Positions 3,472-16,631 of a stretch of 44,203 bases of DNA are shown here, one piece after another (within the stretch, counting starts at the first letter, position 1; every line of letters starts with the position of its first letter). The notes beneath the pieces are model-generated. The model was not told the origin of the DNA. It was given only the letters and a program-made list of their open reading frames with translations, and ran no database searches. The stretch covers positions 1 through 44,203 of the forward strand of contig JAVKIA010000020.1 of NCBI GenBank assembly GCA_031459715.1, in the 5' to 3' direction. The stretch comes from Armatimonadota bacterium. GTDB taxonomy: Bacteria > Sysuimicrobiota > Sysuimicrobiia > Sysuimicrobiales > Humicultoraceae. The translations under genes and the position numbers were made by a program.

Positions 3472-5279
3472 CGCGACGCCCCACCGGGCGGTCGCGTCTG
3501 CGTCTGCAGCGCGCCCGGCCGCGTGCTGCCCCGTCCCCGCGACGTCCCCCTGTAACGGCCGCGCAGTTGCAGCAGGCCGTACGGCGTCGCATCCTGGTGC
3601 TCTTCGTCCTCCTCCTTTTCGCCCAGGGCCTGCTGCTTGGCCGCCTCATCTACATCCAGGGCACTCAGGCCGGGTACCTGCAGCGGCTGGCGCTCAACCA
3701 GCAGCTGGAAGCCTTTTCCCTGCCCAGCCAGCGTGGCCGGATCTTCGACCGTACCGGACGCCCCCTGGTGACCAACGTGGAAGCGGAGTCGGTCTTCGCC
3801 GTCCCCCGGGCCATCCCCGATGCGCGGGCCTTCGCCCGTCGTGTGGCGCCGCTGCTGCAGCTGGATCCGCAGGAGGTCGAGCGGAGGCTGGAACCCGGTC
3901 TGTACTTCGCGTGGCTGAGGCGCAAGGTCAGCCCCCAGATGGCAGCGGCGCTGCGCGCCCTGCGGCTGGAGGGACAGGTGGGGTTCCTGCGCGAGGAGCG
4001 GCGCGCCTATCCCAACGGTACGCTGGCCGCACACCTCCTGGGATTTGTCGGCGTGGACAATCAAGGGTTGGCCGGCGTGGAACTGGCCTACGATGCCACC
4101 CTGCGGGGACACCCGGGAAAGGTGGTGACGGGCCGGGATGCGGTGGGCCGACCTCTGGTGGAGACCCAGCGGCTGGCTGCACCCCCGATGGATGGGGCCG
4201 ACCTGGTGCTGACCATTGACCAAGTGGTACAGCACATTGCCGAGCGGGAGCTGCAGAAGGGGGTGCAGGAAAGCGGCGCAGCGCGGGGCACGGTCCTGGC
4301 CATCGACCCGCGGACGGGGGAGGTGCTGGCGCTGGCGGCGGTGCCGTCCTTCGATCCGGGCGCCTTCCAGCGGGTCCCTCCCCAGCGCTGGGTCAACCGG
4401 CCTATCAGCGAGGTGTACGAGCCCGGGTCGACCTTCAAGGTGATCACGGTGGCCGCAGCCCTGGACGCGGGCCGGGTGACGCTGGCGGACCGGTTCGACT
4501 GTCCGCCCTTCCTGCAGGTGGGGGCGCACCGCATCCGTGACGTCCACCGGTCCTGCACCACGACCCAGACCCTGACCGACATCATCCGTCATTCATCCAA
4601 CGTGGGGGCCGCTCAGGTGGCGGCCCGGCTGGGCAGGCAGACGTTTTACGACTACATCCGCCGCTTCGGCTTCGGCACGGCCACGGGCATTGACCTGCCC
4701 GGGGAAGCCCCCGGGATCATCCGCCCGCCCCAGGAGTGGCTGGGGCCGAGCCTGCAGACCATCGGCTTCGGGCAGGGGATCTCCGCCACGCCGCTGCAGC
4801 TGCTGGTGGCGGCCTCCGCGCTGGCCAACGGCGGCGTGCTGGTACGGCCGCACGTAGTACGCATGGTGCGTGACCGCGAGGGACGGTTGCTGCAGGCCGT
4901 AGGCACCCCTCCCGGACGTCGCGTCATCGCCGCGGAGGTGGCTGCGGCGGTGTTGAGAATGATGATCCGTGTGGTAGAGGACGGCACGGGGAAGCTGGCG
5001 GCCGTTCCGGGCTATGTGGTCGCGGGGAAGACGGGGACGGCGCAGATTCCGGCGCCGCAGGGCGGCTACTTCGCAGGCCGCTACATCAGCTCGTTCCTTG
5101 GGTTCGCTCCCGTTCCCCATCCCCGGCTGGCCGTCCTGGTGGTGCTGGAGGAGCCCCGGGGCGCCTACTTCGGGGGTGCCGTGGCCGCGCCGGTCTTCCG
5201 CGCCATCGTTGAGGCGGCGCTGTGGTACCTGCGCGTGCCGCCAAGCGCATCGGCGCCCCTCCCGCCGAGCGCGCCCTGA
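3468..5279 (+). CDS. ftsI: Septal peptidoglycan transpeptidase FtsI (class B PBP)
   Basis: Class B penicillin-binding protein, 603 residues, that crosslinks septal peptidoglycan with FtsW. A short arginine-rich cytoplasmic tail and one membrane anchor (ILVLFVLLLFAQGLLLGRLI) are followed by the PBP dimerisation domain (RGRIFDRTGRPL onward) and the transpeptidase domain. The catalytic triad motifs are present: S321-T-F-K324, S376-S-N378 and K521-T-G523. No PASTA domains follow; the protein ends shortly after the transpeptidase fold with a Pro-rich tail. The ATG at 3468 overlaps the ftsL stop by 4 nt, implying coupled translation. Position after ftsL favours FtsI over the elongation or sporulation paralogues. 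Confidence 0.95.
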   Translation: MTRRPTGRSRLRLQRARPRAAPSPRRPPVTAAQLQQAVRRRILVLFVLLLFAQGLLLGRLIYIQGTQAGYLQRLALNQQLEAFSLPSQRGRIFDRTGRPLVTNVEAESVFAVPRAIPDARAFARRVAPLLQLDPQEVERRLEPGLYFAWLRRKVSPQMAAALRALRLEGQVGFLREERRAYPNGTLAAHLLGFVGVDNQGLAGVELAYDATLRGHPGKVVTGRDAVGRPLVETQRLAAPPMDGADLVLTIDQVVQHIAERELQKGVQESGAARGTVLAIDPRTGEVLALAAVPSFDPGAFQRVPPQRWVNRPISEVYEPGSTFKVITVAAALDAGRVTLADRFDCPPFLQVGAHRIRDVHRSCTTTQTLTDIIRHSSNVGAAQVAARLGRQTFYDYIRRFGFGTATGIDLPGEAPGIIRPPQEWLGPSLQTIGFGQGISATPLQLLVAASALANGGVLVRPHVVRMVRDREGRLLQAVGTPPGRRVIAAEVAAAVLRMMIRVVEDGTGKLAAVPGYVVAGKTGTAQIPAPQGGYFAGRYISSFLGFAPVPHPRLAVLVVLEEPRGAYFGGAVAAPVFRAIVEAALWYLRVPPSASAPLPPSAP

Positions 5280-5311
5280 CCGGGGCGTGCCGTGGTCGCG
5301 CGGCACCGGTC

Positions 5312-5317
5312 TATAAT
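5312..5317 (+). promoter_or_regulatory. Perfect -10 hexamer for a probable leaderless transcript
   Basis: TATAAT occurs at 5312-5317, the only perfect consensus -10 noticed in the gene spacers here, in very GC-rich surroundings. Six bases separate it from the GTG start of the MFS gene at 5324, so transcription would begin at or next to the start codon. No -35 match is evident 16-18 bp upstream. This spacing is typical of leaderless mRNAs in high-GC bacteria, and the MFS start has no purine-rich Shine-Dalgarno sequence. Confidence 0.6.
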
Positions 5318-5323
5318 GGTCGG

Positions 5324-6496
5324 GTGAACCGGCCGCTGCTGGTCATCTTCCTGACCATCCTGGTCAACCTCATCGGCTTTGGCATCATCATCCCGCTGCT
5401 GCCCTTCTACAGCCAGGCGCTGGGCGCTTCGCCCCTGGTCATCGGGTTGCTGTTCGCCTCGTTCTCGCTGGCGCAACTGGTGGCCGGGCCCATCCTGGGG
5501 GACCTCTCCGACCGCTGGGGCCGCCGGCCGGTGCTGCTGCTCAGCCTGCTGGGGACAGCGGCCAGCTTCACCCTCCTGGCGGTGGCCCGCAGTGTCGCCG
5601 TGCTCTTCCTGGCGCGCATTGTCGACGGCCTCTCCGGGGGCAACATTTCCACCGCACGGGCCTATATCGGGGACATCACCCGAGAGGAGGACCGGGCGCG
5701 GGGGTTTGGGTTGATCGGCGCAGCCTTCGGGCTGGGGTTCATCCTGGGGCCGGCGCTGGCGGCAGGGCTGGGGCACATCGGTTACAGCGCCCCGGCGTGG
5801 GCTGCAGCGGCGCTGGCCCTTGGCGCGGCTGGCCTGGCCTGGCGCTGGCTTCCCGAGACGGTGCATCGGGTGGCGGCGGGTCGGGGCGCACCCTGGCGGG
5901 CCCTCCCCGGGCTGTTGCGCCATCCCCGCCTGGGTCCCCTCCTGTTCATCGATCTGACCTTCTGGTCCGCGCAGGCCATCTACCAGACGACTTTCGCCCT
6001 CTTCGGCGCCCGCCGGTTTGGCTTCGGCGTGCCCCAGACCGGAGCGCTGCTGGCCGGGGTGAGCGCACTCGGCGTGGTGGTGCAGGTGGGCTTCGTGGGT
6101 CCGGTGGTACGACTCCTGGGAGAGTGGCGGGCGCTGGCCCTGGGGCTCCTCCTGGCCGCTGTGGGCCTGGGTACCGCCGCGGCCAGTCACACGCTGGGAG
6201 TGCTCCTCCTGGGTCTGCTGCCCGCCGGAACGGGCATCGCTCTGGCGATCCCCTCGCTCACCAGCCTGCTCAGCCGCACCGCCGATCCCCAGACGCAGGG
6301 ACGGGTGCAGGGGGTAGCCAGCGCGCTGGAGAGCCTGGGGCGCACCGTCGGTCCGGTCTGGGGTAACGGTACCCTGCAGGCGGCGGGGGAAGGGGCGGCT
6401 TTCGGCTCCGGTGCGGTGGTGATGGGCGCGCTCGCCGCCGCCGTCTGGGCCACCCAGCAGGCGGCGCGCCGCGAGCGGGCCCGGGCCTGGAGGTGA
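5324..6496 (+). CDS. MFS transporter, DHA1/TetA-like
   Basis: A 390-residue major facilitator superfamily protein with about 12 hydrophobic segments. The MFS motif A is clear between the second and third helices (GDLSDRWGRRPVLLL). The following part (ARIVDGLSGGNISTARAYIGD, split by helix ends) and FGLGFILGPALA resemble the TetA/drug:H+ antiporter branch. The substrate cannot be read from sequence. The GTG at 5324 is chosen because the first helix begins directly after it (PLLVIFLTILVNLIGFGIII); it sits six bases after a TATAAT box, and the open frame upstream overlaps ftsI. It interrupts the ftsI-murE order and is followed after 4 nt by the FAH-family gene, so the two are probably a unit. Confidence 0.88.
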   Translation: MNRPLLVIFLTILVNLIGFGIIIPLLPFYSQALGASPLVIGLLFASFSLAQLVAGPILGDLSDRWGRRPVLLLSLLGTAASFTLLAVARSVAVLFLARIVDGLSGGNISTARAYIGDITREEDRARGFGLIGAAFGLGFILGPALAAGLGHIGYSAPAWAAAALALGAAGLAWRWLPETVHRVAAGRGAPWRALPGLLRHPRLGPLLFIDLTFWSAQAIYQTTFALFGARRFGFGVPQTGALLAGVSALGVVVQVGFVGPVVRLLGEWRALALGLLLAAVGLGTAAASHTLGVLLLGLLPAGTGIALAIPSLTSLLSRTADPQTQGRVQGVASALESLGRTVGPVWGNGTLQAAGEGAAFGSGAVVMGALAAAVWATQQAARRERARAWR

Positions 6497-6500
6497 GTGC

Positions 6501-7451
6501 ATGCTGTTCCTGACCTACGCCGGCGCCCAGGGGCCCCGCCTGGGCGTCCTGGTCGACGAGCTGGTCTACGATCTCCCGGCGCTGTACCGGCGCCTGGTGC
6601 GGCAAGAGGGGAAGACGCCGCAGGGGGCCATCCCCACCGACCTGGTGAGCTTCATCGAGCGCAGCTCGGTGGTGCTAGTACGGCGGCTGCTGGCGCTGGT
6701 CCGCGCATTGCCCCCAGCCAGCCGGCGCGCGCTGGCCCGCCCGCTGCGCGCGGTGACCCTGATGGCCCCCATCCCCCGGCCGCGCAAGAACATCTTCTGC
6801 GTCGGCCGCAATTACCCGGCGCACATCCGCGAAGCCGCAGTCCCTCCTCCCCAGCAGCCCGTGTGGTTCACCAAGCCGCCCACCGCTGTCATCGGGCCCT
6901 TCGCCCCCATCCTCTACCCTGCTGCCACCCGGGCCCTGGACTACGAGGTGGAGCTGGTAGTGGTGATAGGGCGGCGGGGGCGGAACATACCGCGGGAGCA
7001 CGCGCTGGAGTACGTCTTCGGGTACACGGTGATGAACGACGTAACTGCCCGCGACCTGCAGCGTGAGCGCGGCCAGTGGTTCAAGGGCAAGAGCCTGGAC
7101 ACCTTCGCTCCCCTGGGCCCCTGGGTGGTGCACCGCTCGGCGCTGCCGCAACCGCAGCGGCTGATGGTGCGGGCGCGGGTCAACGGTGAGCTACGCCAGG
7201 AGGCCTCCACCGCCGAGATGATCTTTCCACTTGAGGCGCTGATTGCGGACCTCTCGCGGGGGATGACCCTGGAGCCCGGGGACCTGATCGCCACGGGCAC
7301 ACCGGGTGGCGTGGGGATGGGGTTTCAGCCGCCGCGCTACCTGCAGGTTGGCGACGTGGTAGAGGTTGAAGTGGAGGGTATCGGGGTTCTGCGCAACCCG
7401 GTGCAGGCGGCGCCGGGTCAGGCGGAGCGCATGGTGAGGGAGAAGCTGTGA
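6501..7451 (+). CDS. Fumarylacetoacetate hydrolase (FAH) family protein
   Basis: A 316-residue enzyme of the FAH/2-hydroxyhepta-2,4-diene-1,7-dioate isomerase superfamily, metal-dependent C-C hydrolases, decarboxylases or isomerases acting on diketo acids. An N-terminal lobe (LFLTYAGAQGPRLGVLVD) precedes the catalytic domain with NIFCVGRNYPAH, the metal-ligand strand LDYEVELVVVIG, GYTVMNDVTARDLQ, KSLDTFAPLGPWVV and LIATGTPGGVGMG. The exact reaction cannot be assigned. Start at ATG 6501 is supported by GGAGGTGA at 6489-6496, which itself contains the stop codon of the MFS gene, so translation is coupled. Its stop overlaps the murE start (GTGA). There is no functional link to wall synthesis that I know of. 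Confidence 0.9.
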   Translation: MLFLTYAGAQGPRLGVLVDELVYDLPALYRRLVRQEGKTPQGAIPTDLVSFIERSSVVLVRRLLALVRALPPASRRALARPLRAVTLMAPIPRPRKNIFCVGRNYPAHIREAAVPPPQQPVWFTKPPTAVIGPFAPILYPAATRALDYEVELVVVIGRRGRNIPREHALEYVFGYTVMNDVTARDLQRERGQWFKGKSLDTFAPLGPWVVHRSALPQPQRLMVRARVNGELRQEASTAEMIFPLEALIADLSRGMTLEPGDLIATGTPGGVGMGFQPPRYLQVGDVVEVEVEGIGVLRNPVQAAPGQAERMVREKL

Positions 7452-8965
7452 AGAGTGTCCCCCTTTCCGCTCTCCTGGCCGCCCTCCCCGGGTGTACCGT
7501 CAGGGGGGATGTGCGGCGGACTATTACGGGGATCGCCTATCACTCCAACCGGGTGCAGCCCGGGTTTCTCTTTGCCGCCATCCACGGTACCCGCCACGAC
7601 GGCCACGCATTCGTCCCGGAGGCCCTGCGCCGGGGTGCTGTTGCGTTGCTGGTGCAGCAGCCGGTGGCAGCGCCGCTTCAGGTTCCGCAGATACTGGTGG
7701 CCGACACCCGCGCCGCCCTGGGCGCGCTGGCCGCCGCCTTCTACGGCCACCCCGCGGAAGCGTTGACCGTCATTGGAGTCACCGGCACTAACGGCAAAGG
7801 GGTGACCACGTTCTTCATCGACGCGATCCTCAAGGGAGCCGGCTACCGCAGCGCCATCATCGGGACCATGGGAGCGTGGACCCCCGGGGGGTTCGTGGAG
7901 ACCGACCGCACCACGCCGGAGGCGCCCGACCTGCAGCGCCTGCTGGCCGGCCTGCGCGACCAGGGGGTGACCCACGTGGCCATGGAGGTGGCCTCCCACG
8001 CGCTGGCGTTGCATCGGGTGCACGGGACCCGCTTCCGGGTCGCGGTCTTCACCAACCTGACACCCGACCACCTGGACTTCCACGGCACGTGGGAGGCCTA
8101 CCTGGAGGCGAAGCGCCGGCTCTTTGCCCTGGTGGACCCCCGGGGGTGGAGCGTGATCAATGCCGACGATCCTGCGGGGGAGGAGATGGCCCGGGCCAGC
8201 CGGGCTCCGGTGCGCCGCTACGCCGGGCAACGCGGGTGGCTCTCTGCTCCTCCCGGGGTGGACCTGTGGGCGGAGGAAGTGGTGCTGGGCCTGGAGGGAT
8301 GCACCTTCCGCGCCACCACATCGCAGGGCTCCTGTCCGGTCCGGCTGCCCATCGGCGGCGCCTTCAACGTGGCCAACGCCCTGGCCGCGCTGGCCACCGG
8401 GCTGGCCCTGGAGATCCCGCTGGAGGTCGGGGCGGCGGCGCTGGAGACGGTGCGCGGGGTCCCCGGTCGTTTCGAGCCGGTGCGGGAAGGGCAGGACTTC
8501 GCCGTCATCGTGGACTACGCCCACACGCCCGACGGCCTGGAGAACGTGCTGCGCACGGCGCGGCAGATCACGCGCGGAAGGGTCATTGTGGTGTTCGGCT
8601 GCGGCGGCGACCGCGACCGGGCCAAGCGGCCCCTGATGGGGCGGCTGGCCGCGGAGCTGGCGGACTTCGCCGTCGTCACCTCGGACAACCCGCGCAGCGA
8701 AGAGCCCCGGGCGATCATTGAGGAGATCCTCCAGGGCGTGCGGGCAACGGGAGAGGGGCTGCGCCGCGCCCGAGTGGCGGTTGAACCGGACCGCCGCGCG
8801 GCGATTCACTGCGCCGTCTCCACCGCCACCACGGGGGATGTGGTGATCATTGCGGGGAAGGGGCACGAAACCACCCAGGAGGTCCTGGGGGTGCGACACC
8901 CCTTCGACGACCGGGTCGTCGCCCGCGAGGCCCTGCGGGCCCGGCGGGGGTGCGCGGCGCCATGA
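7448..8965 (+). CDS. murE: UDP-MurNAc-tripeptide synthetase MurE (meso-DAP type)
   Basis: Mur ligase that adds the third amino acid to UDP-MurNAc-L-Ala-D-Glu. The 505-residue product has the N-terminal MurE domain (SNRVQPGFLFAAIHG), the ATP-binding central domain (VTGTNGKGVTT), the HLDFHGT motif with a likely carbamylated lysine K222 in YLEAKRRL, and the C-terminal domain with DYAHTPDGLENVL and GCGGDRDRAKRP. D413-N-P-R416 is the motif that selects meso-diaminopimelate rather than lysine. Odd feature: the P-loop reads GKG (K117, G118) where the family has GKT, although T120-T121 follow. GTG start overlaps the FAH gene stop; its stop overlaps murF (ATGA). Confidence 0.95.
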   Translation: MKSVPLSALLAALPGCTVRGDVRRTITGIAYHSNRVQPGFLFAAIHGTRHDGHAFVPEALRRGAVALLVQQPVAAPLQVPQILVADTRAALGALAAAFYGHPAEALTVIGVTGTNGKGVTTFFIDAILKGAGYRSAIIGTMGAWTPGGFVETDRTTPEAPDLQRLLAGLRDQGVTHVAMEVASHALALHRVHGTRFRVAVFTNLTPDHLDFHGTWEAYLEAKRRLFALVDPRGWSVINADDPAGEEMARASRAPVRRYAGQRGWLSAPPGVDLWAEEVVLGLEGCTFRATTSQGSCPVRLPIGGAFNVANALAALATGLALEIPLEVGAAALETVRGVPGRFEPVREGQDFAVIVDYAHTPDGLENVLRTARQITRGRVIVVFGCGGDRDRAKRPLMGRLAAELADFAVVTSDNPRSEEPRAIIEEILQGVRATGEGLRRARVAVEPDRRAAIHCAVSTATTGDVVIIAGKGHETTQEVLGVRHPFDDRVVAREALRARRGCAAP

Positions 8966-11336: not shown

Positions 11337-11371
11337 GCGGTAGGCGGGACTGGTCGAGGAGGGAGAGGCAG

Positions 11372-12835
11372 GTGGACGCCCTTGGGCTGCGCGGGAAGGC
11401 CATCCACGTGATTGGGGCTGCGGGCACCGAGGGGTCTGCAGTGATCGACTTCCTGCTTTCCCACGGCGTCACCACCATCACCGGGCACGACCTCAGTGCG
11501 TCCTCCGAGCAATTTGCGGAGACCTTCTATCGGACGCACCAGTGGCTCCCTCCCGAGGGGCGGCAGGGGGCGCTGGCCCGATTTCTGGACTCCCCGGTGC
11601 GGATCCGCTACCGCGACGACTACCTGGCAGGGATCGAGGAGGCGGACCTGATAGTGGTACCACAGTCCTGGTTCCGCCATCCGGAGAATGCCCCCCTGCA
11701 CGCGCTGCGGGCCCAGGGCGTGCCCTTCACCTCTATGACCCGCCTCTTCTTCCAGACCTGTCCCTGCCCCATCATCGGGGTTACCGGGACCAACGGCAAG
11801 TTCACCGTCGTCACCCTGATCTCTGAGATGTTGCGGGCGGCCGGGTGGACTGTCTTCTGCTCCGGCAACGACCGCAGCCACGTGCCCATGCTCTACTTCC
11901 TGGACCGGATCACCCCCCGGGCCTGGCTGGTGCTGGAGATCAGCAACCGGCAACTGGTGGACCTGGATCGCAGCCCGCACATCGGGGTCGTCACCAACGT
12001 GGTGCCCCATCACCTGGACGACCACGGGACCATGGAGGCGTACACGCAGGTGAAGGCCACGCTGATCCGCTACCAGGAGCACGGGGACCACGCCGTCCTG
12101 AACCGTGACAACCCGCTGACGGCGGCCATGGCCCAAGAGGCCCGCGGGCAGGTCTGGTGGTTCAGCGCCGGGGGAGCCGTGCCCCAGGGAGCGTACCTCG
12201 ACGGAGAGGTGCTGCGGCTGGCCGGCGGGGGCGCGCCGGCGATCCTGCCGGCCGCCGAGCTTCTCCTCCCCGGGGGGGCCATGGTGGAGAACGCCCTGGC
12301 CGCCTGCGCCGCCGCGGCCATCATCGGCGTGCCCCCCGGGATCATGGCAGGCGTCCTGCGAGAGTTCCGCGGCCTCCCGTACCGGTTTCGCCGGGTGGGG
12401 GAGTACCGCGGGATCGCCTTCTACGAGGACTCGCTGGCGACCAACCCCACGGCTGCGGCTGCGGCCATCCGCAGCCTGGACCGGCCCTTCTTCCTCATCG
12501 CCGGGGGCTTCCGCCGGGGCGCCGTCCCCGAGGACTTCCGGCCCATGACCGATGCGCTCGTTGCCTCAGGGCGCTGCCGCGCGGTCTTCCTCATTGGCTC
12601 CACGGCCCGGGCGCTGGCCTACGCGGTGGAAGCGCTTCCTCCGCCGCGTCCGCCCGCGGTCATTGCCGGAACGCTGGAGGCGGCGATGGCGGAAGCGGCA
12701 CGTCTGGCCCGGCCCGGGGAGGCGGTCCTGCTCTCTCCGGGGTGTGAGTCCTTCGACCAGTTCGCCGACTACCGCCAGCGGGGGGACCGCTTCCGCGCCC
12801 TGGCGGAGGAGTTTGCCACGGCCGGGGCCAAGTAA
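11372..12835 (+). CDS. murD: Divergent Mur ligase in the MurD position
   Basis: By position (mraY-X-ftsW-murG) and architecture this is the D-glutamate-adding ligase MurD: Rossmann-like N-domain (KAIHVIGAAGTEGSAVI), P-loop domain (GVTGTNGKFTVVTL), NVVPHHLDDHGTMEAY with likely carbamylated K228, and C-domain with FYEDSLATNPTAA and LSPGCESFDQF. The length of 487 residues is slightly above normal. Several conserved positions differ. The P-loop has K143-F144 instead of K-T. DSLATN has L355 where MurD has lysine (E. coli K319). GGFRR has R382 at the K348 position. Y467 replaces F422, and the usual SSFQLE reads SNRQLV. S460 (E. coli S415) and T357 (T321) are retained. GTG start follows AGGAGGGAGAGG. 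No other murD candidate is in the window, so it probably serves as MurD, perhaps with altered substrate recognition. Confidence 0.8.
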   Translation: MDALGLRGKAIHVIGAAGTEGSAVIDFLLSHGVTTITGHDLSASSEQFAETFYRTHQWLPPEGRQGALARFLDSPVRIRYRDDYLAGIEEADLIVVPQSWFRHPENAPLHALRAQGVPFTSMTRLFFQTCPCPIIGVTGTNGKFTVVTLISEMLRAAGWTVFCSGNDRSHVPMLYFLDRITPRAWLVLEISNRQLVDLDRSPHIGVVTNVVPHHLDDHGTMEAYTQVKATLIRYQEHGDHAVLNRDNPLTAAMAQEARGQVWWFSAGGAVPQGAYLDGEVLRLAGGGAPAILPAAELLLPGGAMVENALAACAAAAIIGVPPGIMAGVLREFRGLPYRFRRVGEYRGIAFYEDSLATNPTAAAAAIRSLDRPFFLIAGGFRRGAVPEDFRPMTDALVASGRCRAVFLIGSTARALAYAVEALPPPRPPAVIAGTLEAAMAEAARLARPGEAVLLSPGCESFDQFADYRQRGDRFRALAEEFATAGAK

Positions 12836-14008: not shown

Positions 14009-15211
14009 GTGGGCACCGCGGGGGACCTGCGGCTGGTCATCGCTGGCGGGGGGACGGGAGGTCACCTCTACCCGGGGATCGCCGTGGCCGAGGTGGCACA
14101 GGCACGCCTTGCCGCCCGGATCCTGTTCATGGGCGGGGCGCGGCTGGAGGCGCGCGTGCTGGGCCCGGCCGGGTGGGCCTTCGTCCGGGTGGCCTCCCGC
14201 CCGCTGCCGCGGCGGGTGGGCCCCGCTGCTATCTGGTCGCTGGGGGTGAACGCTGCGGGGACGCTGCAGGCACTTGGCCGCCTGCGGCGCTTTTCGCCGG
14301 ATGCGGTGCTGGCCACCGGCGGGTACGCCGCCGCTCCCGTAGGCCTGGCGGCGCTTCTCCTAGGCATCCCCCTGGTGCTGCAGGAGCAGAACATGCTCCC
14401 CGGCCTGGTCAACACCTGGCTTGCCCGCTGGGCCAGGGCAATTTCCGTCCCGGCCCAGGTGCCCGGATTCCCCGCGGGCCGCACCGTCGTCACCGGCGTG
14501 CCCGTGCGTCCCAGCGTCCTGCGTGGAGAGCGGGACCGCGCCCGGCGCAGGTTTGGCCTCGACTCCGGGCGCTTTACCGTCCTGGTGCTGGGTGGCAGTC
14601 AGGGGGCGGTGCGCCTCAACCGCGCGGTGGGCGAGGCCGCTACGCTGATGATGTACGAGCCGATCCAGATCCTGCACCAGACGGGCGGCGACCACCTGGA
14701 GTGGGTGCGACGGGAGATCGGGCACCGAGAGCACGTGGGCCCCCCGGTCATCCGGCAGATCCCCCTGGCGTTCATCGAGGAGATGGGCGACGCCTACGCC
14801 GCCGCTGACCTGGTGGTCTGCCGGGCGGGCGCCTCCACCCTGGCCGAGGTCACGGCCTGGGGGCTGCCCGCCATCGTGGTCCCTTATCCCCATGCAGCGG
14901 GCCGGCACCAGGACGCCAACGCCAGCCGGCTGGCCGCGGCAGGCGCGGCCGAGGTCATTCCTGATGCAGAGCTGACGGGGCTGCGCCTGCAGGAGCACAT
15001 CCGTGGGCTGGTCCACGACAGGGTGCGCCTGCGGGCCATGGCGGAAGCCAGCCGTCGCCTGGGCCGTCCCGCCGCCGCGGCCCGCGTCCTCGACCTCCTG
15101 CTGGCCGCCACGGGACGGTCGCCGCTTGAGCCTGCCGCTTCCTCAGGGGCCCCGGGGTCCTCCGGCAGGCGCTCCGGGCGGGTGCTGCCAGCGACGCGGC
15201 TGCCCGGGTAA
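14009..15211 (+). CDS. murG: UDP-GlcNAc:lipid I N-acetylglucosaminyltransferase MurG
   Basis: Peripheral membrane GT28 enzyme that converts lipid I to lipid II. The 400-residue product has the glycine-rich acceptor loop GGGTGGH (residues 13-19), ATGGYAAAPVGLAA, LVLQEQNMLPGLVN, VTGVPVRPSV, LVLGGSQGAVRLN, the nucleotide-sugar site CRAGASTLAEVTAWGLP and PYPHAAGRHQDANA. It is longer than usual (about 360) because of a low-complexity tail of about 30 residues (SSGAPGSSGRRSG), which may be dispensable or a misread end. GTG 14009 directly follows the ftsW TGA, with GGGAGGTGG at 13995-14003 as ribosome binding site. Confidence 0.95.
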   Translation: MGTAGDLRLVIAGGGTGGHLYPGIAVAEVAQARLAARILFMGGARLEARVLGPAGWAFVRVASRPLPRRVGPAAIWSLGVNAAGTLQALGRLRRFSPDAVLATGGYAAAPVGLAALLLGIPLVLQEQNMLPGLVNTWLARWARAISVPAQVPGFPAGRTVVTGVPVRPSVLRGERDRARRRFGLDSGRFTVLVLGGSQGAVRLNRAVGEAATLMMYEPIQILHQTGGDHLEWVRREIGHREHVGPPVIRQIPLAFIEEMGDAYAAADLVVCRAGASTLAEVTAWGLPAIVVPYPHAAGRHQDANASRLAAAGAAEVIPDAELTGLRLQEHIRGLVHDRVRLRAMAEASRRLGRPAAAARVLDLLLAATGRSPLEPAASSGAPGSSGRRSGRVLPATRLPG

Positions 15212-15248
15212 CCCTGGTGGGTGCCGTGCGTCAGGTGGGCAAGACCGC

Positions 15249-16631
15249 ATGATCGACGAGCAGCAGCACGTCCACTTCGTGGGCATCGGCGGTACGGGGA
15301 TGAGCGCCCTGGCCGAGGTGTTGCTGGCACGCGGCGCCGCCGTCTCCGGATGTGACATCCGGGCCTCCGAGGCTACCCGGCGACTGCAGGCCCGTGGAGC
15401 GGTGGTGCGCATCGGCCACAGCCCCGCTCACCTGCAGGGGGTGGACCTGGTAGTGGCTTCGCGGGCGGTGCGGGCGGAGAGCGTGGAGCTCCTGGCGGCG
15501 CAGGGGCGCGGCCTCCCGGTCTGGCACCGCGCTGAGCTGCTCGGCCGCCTGATGCGTGACGCCCGCTCCATCGCGGTGGCCGGGACGCACGGCAAGACCA
15601 CCACCACGGCCATGGCGGCGGCGGTGCTGGTCGCCGGCGGTCTGGACCCCACTGCGCTGATCGGCGCCGACGTGGTGACGCTTGGGGGCAACGCGCGGGT
15701 GGGCACCTCGCCCTGGATGGTGGCGGAGGTGGACGAGAGCGACGGCTCGCTGCTCCACGTGGCGCCGTGGGCGGCGGTGGTGACCAGCCTGGACCTCACC
15801 GACCACGCCGACTTCTACGGGTCGCCCGAGCACCTGGAGCGGACCTTCCGCCGGTTCCTGGAGGGGATCAAGGCGGACGGCTTCGCCGTGATCAGCGCCG
15901 ACCACCCCATCGCCGCCCGCATGGCCTCGGTGCCGCGCGTCCCGGTGGTCACCTACGGGCTGGGAGGAGGAGCCGAGCTGGCGGCGGAGGTTGAGGAGCT
16001 GCGCGGCCCGGCCAGCCGCGCCGTGCTGCGGCGCCGGGGAAGACGGTTGGGCAGGCTGAGCCTGCAGGTCCCCGGGCGGTACAACGTGGCCAACGCCCTG
16101 GGGGCCGTGGCGGTGGGCCTGCAGGTGGGCGTTTCCTTCCACACCATCGCTGCGGCGCTGGCCGCCTTTCGCGGCGTGCACCGCCGCTTCGAGATCCGCG
16201 GGGAAGCGGACGGCGTCCTGGTCGTGGACGACTACGCCCACAACCCGGTGAAGGTGGCGGCCGTGCTGCGGGCGGCCCGGGAGTGCTGGCCGGGACGGCG
16301 GGTGGTGGCCCTCTTCCAGCCGCACCGCTACACGCGGACGCGGGCCACCTACGCGCAGTTCGCCGATGCCTTCCGCGACGCCGACCAGGTGGTGATCACG
16401 GAGATTTACCCCGCCGACGAGGAGCCCATCCCCGGAGTCAGCGCCGCCCTGATCGTGGACGCGGTGCGGCGGCACCGGCCCGTGGACTTCGTCCCGTCAG
16501 CGGAGGAGGCGGTCGAGCAGGTTGCGCGACGCGCCCGGCCCGGCGACCTGGTGCTGACGATGGGCGCGGGGGACATCGGGACGGCGGCGGACCGCCTTCT
16601 GGAGCGGCTGCGCGCCCGGGTGTGGCCGTGA
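15249..16631 (+). CDS. murC: UDP-MurNAc:L-alanine ligase MurC
   Basis: First Mur ligase, adding L-Ala to UDP-MurNAc. The 460-residue product starts with the dinucleotide-like loop HFVGIGGTGMSALA, then an intact P-loop (VAGTHGKTTTTAMAA), AEVDESDGSLLH, SLDLTDHADFYGS, PGRYNVANALGAVAVG, RRFEIRG, DDYAHNPVKV and FQPHRYTRTR, all MurC hallmarks. ATG 15249 is chosen because family alignment starts here; the frame is open upstream over murG, but those residues are murG read in another frame. It ends with a GTGA overlap with murB. Confidence 0.95.
   Translation: MIDEQQHVHFVGIGGTGMSALAEVLLARGAAVSGCDIRASEATRRLQARGAVVRIGHSPAHLQGVDLVVASRAVRAESVELLAAQGRGLPVWHRAELLGRLMRDARSIAVAGTHGKTTTTAMAAAVLVAGGLDPTALIGADVVTLGGNARVGTSPWMVAEVDESDGSLLHVAPWAAVVTSLDLTDHADFYGSPEHLERTFRRFLEGIKADGFAVISADHPIAARMASVPRVPVVTYGLGGGAELAAEVEELRGPASRAVLRRRGRRLGRLSLQVPGRYNVANALGAVAVGLQVGVSFHTIAAALAAFRGVHRRFEIRGEADGVLVVDDYAHNPVKVAAVLRAARECWPGRRVVALFQPHRYTRTRATYAQFADAFRDADQVVITEIYPADEEPIPGVSAALIVDAVRRHRPVDFVPSAEEAVEQVARRARPGDLVLTMGAGDIGTAADRLLERLRARVWP

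Follow-up and report, generated by a model that had tools for sequence, protein, structure and literature searches.

The sole murD gene in the stretch of DNA analysed here (the window; 44,203 nucleotides, contig C20 of a source genome of 2.76 Mb and 97% completeness) probably encodes, at a rough probability of 0.6, a functional MurD of a Sysuimicrobiota-specific subfamily, in which the acceptor/glutamate pocket was rebuilt around an unchanged core and which is most likely supplied with D-glutamate from a source other than MurI. MurD catalyses the addition of the second amino acid to the peptide of the bacterial cell wall. Strict conservation of D-Glu at this stem position among bacteria has been reported (PMC5885031).

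Gene, locus and copy number

The gene occupies the MurD place in a dcw cluster with the order rsmH-ftsL/divIC-ftsI-MFS-FAH-murE-murF-mraY-murD-ftsW-murG-murC-murB-ftsQ-ftsA-ftsZ (Table 1). The closest named relative is the MAG 'Armatimonadetes bacterium CSP1-3' (79% identical), and we infer that the phylum of the source genome is Sysuimicrobiota (CSP1-3) as named in a paper on this phylum in which peptidoglycan goes without mention (PMC11604079). The C-terminal half of a Sysuimicrobiota-type MurD (60% identical, with DSLATN) is also found in DYHL01000049.1, which is filed as 'Candidatus Nitrosymbiomonas' and is probably a misbinned contig.

The preliminary description had called this gene the only murD candidate, which is borne out by the genome-wide search. 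A single TIGR01087 match (E ≤ 1e-35) was found in the source genome, and all seven Mur_ligase_M matches could be assigned (MurE, MurF, MurD, MurC, MurT and two FolC-like proteins on contigs C2 and C30, the latter identified by reading the sequence), so that a second canonical murD is ruled out. Across the phylum, 40 of 43 genomes have one MurD each and none has more than one; 39 of the 43 score above the TIGR01087 cutoff, and the three genomes with no match are incomplete (68-89%).

Table 1. The murD locus, diagnostic stretches of the window MurD and related genes elsewhere in the source genome (positions refer to the window unless a contig is named; fractions of 40 refer to phylum rows of the alignment, those of 83 to references)
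Feature	Position	Strand	Remarks
MFS transporter gene	5222..6496		between ftsI and murE
Fumarylacetoacetate-hydrolase-family (FAH) gene	6501..7451		between ftsI and murE
murE, meso-DAP type	7448..8965	+	NF001126 530 bits (cutoff 373); TIGR01085 520 bits; DNPR motif
Shine-Dalgarno-like GAGGAGGG	11356..11363	+	from the sequence; ~8 bases upstream of GTG 11372
murD, 487 aa	11372..12835	+	TIGR01087 270.1 bits (cutoff 211.95); GTG start 11372, stop 12835
Q98-x-W-x-R-x3-N106 loop for MurD SPG(I/V) loop	11663..11689	+	Q98, W100, R102, N106 in 40/40
P-loop G139-TNGKF-T145, Phe144 at S/T116	11786..11806	+	F38 Y2 of 40; references T57 S24 G2
N166-D-R-S-H170	11867..11881	+	D-R follows N138 as an insert, His at G140; D167, R168, H170 in 40/40
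S191-N-R-Q-L195 for SSFQL	11942..11956	+	S160 to N, F161 to R; N192, R193 in 40/40
H213-H214	12008..12013	+	H213 at D182, the D/L-Glu switch position; H214 is conserved H183
K228	12053..12055	+	K198, carbamylated-lysine position; kept in 40/40 and 83/83
D353-S-L-A-T-N358, Leu355 at K319	12428..12445	+	L in 40/40
R381-R382 plus insert A384-V385-P386	12512..12529	+	K348 loop; R381 in 40/40
E459-S460	12746..12751	+	Glu at A414, then conserved S415; E in 39/39 readable rows
Y467 at F422	12770..12772	+	ordinary; references Y48 F33
murC, canonical	15003..16631	+	TIGR01082 473 bits (cutoff 335)
Asp/Glu racemase gene	contig C7:92112-92762 (L034:1315-2169)	minus	adjoins dksA and lspA
MurT gene	contig C54, L006:745-2136	minus	GatD directly downstream

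Conserved core and rebuilt substrate site

The residue comparison was made on an alignment of 40 phylum rows (39 genomes, G006 being present twice) with 83 reference MurDs from four phyla only: 31 Gammaproteobacteria including E. coli, 50 Bacillota, one Acidobacteriota and one Gemmatimonadota. Two MurD2 sequences were included apart from this reference set, and E. coli residues carry the numbers of mature MurD. Since the Bacillota set has 20 deliberately low-scoring members, reference frequencies are not those of a random sample.

All 15 residues that are invariant in the references (G111, K115, N138, E157, S159, Q162, N178, H183, Y194, K198, R302, D317, G344, G345 and S415) are retained throughout the phylum, including the catalytic residues K115, N138, E157, H183, K198 (carbamylated), R302 and S415; T321 is also retained. 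To describe departures, a shifted site was defined as a column with at least 95% of one residue in the clade and at least 90% of another residue outside it. The phylum clade has four such sites (P72, G140, S160 and F161), and the control clades (Gammaproteobacteria, Bacillota and the K319-less clostridial group) have none each. The 15 retained invariants together with this difference of four versus zero indicate that the catalytic core is intact while positions of the substrate and nucleotide sites were rebuilt and then frozen; being fixed in 39 genomes, the changes are not a matter of chance.

D-Glu mimetics bound to E. coli MurD are anchored through both carboxylates, one by hydrogen bonds to Lys348 and Thr321 and the other by Ser415 and the amide of Phe422, next to a part of the cleft lined by Asn138, Ser159, Phe161 and Gly73 (PMC3527612). 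In MurD2, the positions equivalent to Asp182 and Lys348 are those whose exchange switches between L- and D-Glu (E197/R358, governing the choice of L-Glu), and the E. coli K319T variant gains acceptance of L-Glu (PMC8788868). Our literature search for metal-site residues of MurD found nothing.

The residues singled out by the preliminary description (K143-F144-T145, S191-N192-R193-Q194-L195, K228, D353-S354-L355-A356-T357-N358, R381-R382, S460 and Y467) are all present, their E. coli equivalents are correct, and the retention of Ser460, Thr357 and K228 is confirmed in the sequence. As to whether the five cited substitutions are common in ordinary MurDs, the answer is negative for S116 and S160/F161 and positive for K319 and F422. 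Phe144 after the P-loop lysine and SNRQL in place of SSFQL are thus both real and diagnostic, the reference counts being S82 N1 at S160 and F78 Y5 at F161. Leu355, by contrast, is fixed in the phylum but is no anomaly: the K319 column of the references reads K68 I13 F1 S1, and the 15 references without this lysine are all of the clostridial type, with DSI(A/S) and a retained K348. Tyr467 is likewise present, but Tyr is the commonest residue of the references at this position. Both K319L and F422Y were therefore rejected as signs of altered specificity. Arg382 does stand in the K348 column; however, this column reads P19 R17 with four others in the phylum (K81 R2 in the references), so it is not a conserved replacement. 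The invariant arginine is R381, one residue earlier, and a three-residue insert follows R382. This arrangement, with P or R at K348 and R381 preceding it, argues for a MurD variant with a non-canonical D-Glu site.

Overlooked so far were Q98, the inserted D167-R168, H170, H213, E459 and the insert after R382. The most telling departures overall are Q98, D167-R168, H170, N192-R193, H213, R381 and E459. The P72 position is Q in all 40 phylum rows (P82 Q1 in the references) and the Asp-Arg insert after N138 occurs in no reference (0/83). At D182, the phylum has H39 N1 versus D65 N16 A2 in the references and E in MurD2; at A414, the references have A70 S9 T3 P1 and MurD2 has P. We propose that an invariant set, R193, R381, H213, E459, D167-R168, H170 and Q98, takes the place of the E. 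coli Lys/Phe residues K319, K348 and F161. The enzyme would use ATP to turn the L-Ala carboxylate of UDP-MurNAc-L-Ala into an activated acyl phosphate; attack on the latter by the glutamate amine would then give UDP-MurNAc-L-Ala-Glu, to be passed to MurE. Whatever the individual roles of these residues may be, R193, R381, H213 and E459 provide a defined set for testing how a Mur ligase chooses the glutamate enantiomer.

The near-universal S/T after the P-loop lysine of the references counts against our reading of a functional MurD. The P-loop change is not confined to MurD, as the phylum MurE has GKG: the window MurE reads GTNGKGVTT, with Gly after Lys instead of Thr/Ser, and GKG is found in 13 of the 14 phylum MurEs with a readable motif (the window's included), L020 alone retaining GKT. 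The MurC of the phylum retains GKTTT.

Position within the Mur ligase family

The AlphaFold2 model of the window MurD (built with 22 sequences) has a pLDDT of 92.6 and a pTM of 0.91, and the 33 best PDB matches returned for it by Foldseek are all MurD. In a tree with a MurC/E/F outgroup, MurD is split from MurC/E/F with 99/98 support and the phylum sequences form a clade (100/100) inside MurD. This clade, along with residues fixed in the phylum and absent from the references, supports the earlier suggestion of a distinct MurD subfamily. The Xanthomonadales-type MurD2, whose gene adjoins MurL, forms a clade separate from the phylum MurDs in the best tree; a joint clade is not rejected (p-AU 0.251).

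The N-terminal UDP-binding domain (residues 1-100, positions 11372-11670) is unmatched by the Pfam Mur-ligase N-domain models, and the TIGR01087 alignment starts at model position 75 only. The domain has GTEG, H-x-W and RYL motifs conserved in the phylum.

Source of D-glutamate

Known ways of placing D-Glu in the stem include MurI, D-amino-acid transaminase (DAAT), bifunctional DapF, the RacD/BsrF bypass and MurD2/MurL. Counted by profile cutoffs in what are mostly draft genomes, MurI is absent from the phylum (0/43 above the TIGR00067 cutoff). MurL is likewise absent by protein search (0/43) and by the NF041275 profile (0/31), which found both positive controls (2/2); a single 18-bit match in G028 is at chance level. 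Where the D-Glu comes from in a deep, uncultured phylum that lacks both MurI and MurL is a clear missing-enzyme question.

DAAT was rejected as a phylum-wide source, as it is above cutoff in 0/43 genomes. A DAAT-like protein of the source genome (contig C19) is a near miss, with 274 bits against the NF005209 cutoff of 320, and the one ~200-bit match chosen for typing proved to be a branched-chain aminotransferase. Of the 28 better genomes, 24 have a strong full-length Asp/Glu racemase match (PF01177 with at least 150 bits, CuyB/asp_race type). In the source genome the racemase carries both Cys motifs and is scored as CuyB/asp_race; in G013 its gene lies downstream of the dcw cluster, flanked by ileS and dksA-lspA. 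By the same PF01177 search, four of the better genomes lack the enzyme (G002, G009, G010 and G041); in G002, ileS directly abuts dksA, with no racemase at the usual place. A CuyB-type racemase therefore cannot be the sole source of D-Glu and is ruled out as a universal one, which counts against our reading. In G010 (95% complete), MurI, MurL, the CuyB-type racemase and any DAAT-like match are all missing; MurD and MurT are present. There is precedent for a supply by other enzymes: a murI mutant of Vibrio fischeri is rescued by overexpressed aspartate racemase RacD (PMC12502697), and bifunctional DapF is another D-Glu source (PMC5885031).

The absence of MurI would also suit the main rival explanation, namely that the phylum MurD uses L-Glu, which is then converted by an epimerase other than MurL. 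As in MurD2 (with I, R and E), the K319, K348 and D182 positions are all changed; judged by the sequence, the change at both positions of D-/L-Glu choice (D182 and K348) would count against our reading, and the behaviour of E. coli K319T and of E197/R358 in MurD2 (PMC8788868) fits this route, as does the unrejected joint clade (p-AU 0.25). On the other hand, the MurL searches were negative in protein and profile form with the controls recovered, the replacing residues are unlike those of MurD2 (H rather than E; P/R plus R381 rather than plain R; E rather than P at A414), loss of K319 is common among clostridial MurDs, and the two clades are unjoined in the free tree. We consider this route unlikely. 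The wider proposal of a third route operating throughout the phylum with neither MurI nor MurL, in which MurD independently switched to L-glutamate or relaxed its chirality and acts with a MurL-unrelated epimerase, appears quite unlikely. We favour a MurD that would still take D-Glu, supplied by a RacD/CuyB-type Asp/Glu racemase or a class-IV D-amino-acid transaminase rather than by MurI.

Remaining alternatives and the identity of the second residue

The stem branch of the Sysuimicrobiota MurD clade is long (0.87), and several of the cited changes (Y467, L355) are seen in ordinary MurDs as well, as would be expected if old neutral or compensatory drift had left substrate and kinetics unchanged and the replacements had no special meaning. 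Yet the sites are invariant within the phylum, the shifted-site test gave four against zero in each control clade, and several departures cluster on substrate-site loops; drift as the whole explanation is improbable.

MurC, MurE and MurF score as canonical, and MurT_C is present in 40/43 phylum genomes, including 28/28 of the better ones. In known systems MurT/GatD amidates D-Glu to D-isoGln, so the residue added by the phylum MurD is most simply glutamate: position 2 should be glutamate, which MurT/GatD would later amidate to isoglutamine. Altered recognition of the second residue, suggested by the preliminary description, is possible in view of the changed D182 and K348 positions, but the canonical MurE and the conserved MurT/GatD point to glutamate. 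A second residue other than glutamate (e.g. D-Asp or an amide), or an acceptor other than UDP-MurNAc-L-Ala, is very improbable, for although the acceptor-side loops are changed too (the P72/G73 and N138 loops and S160/F161), E459 puts a negative charge near S415 and the associated racemase is in the Asp/cysteate racemase family, the canonical scores of MurC, MurE and MurF, the conserved D-Glu-amidating MurT/GatD and the retained S415, T321 and R302 all speak against it.

Comparison with known systems

The MurT/GatD isoglutaminyl synthase is found in the same genome and phylum, and MurT is likewise a Mur-fold ligase; however, its gene lies apart from murD, it acts at a later step of the pathway and it is not the product of the murD locus. 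Clostridial MurDs with DSI(A/S)(T/S) for DSKATN share the aliphatic residue at K319 with the phylum MurD but, unlike it, retain K348 (GGxDK) and N/D at 182. The MurD2/MurL system of Xanthomonas (PMC8788868) resembles the phylum in the aliphatic replacement of K319, the changed K348 and D182 positions and the lack of MurI. It differs in that the phylum is without MurL, has other replacing residues (H213 and P/R382 instead of the MurD2 hallmarks, Glu at D182 and Arg at K348) and forms a separate clade in the best tree. With canonical MurD (E. coli b0088) the window enzyme shares the fold, the dcw position, the reference-invariant residues and a score above the curated cutoff, and it departs from it by phylum-fixed residues in place of S116, P72, G140, S160, F161, D182, K348 and A414, by the phylum Asp-Arg insert after N138 and the three-residue insert after the K348 loop, and by an N-terminal domain unmatched by TIGR01087 before position 75.
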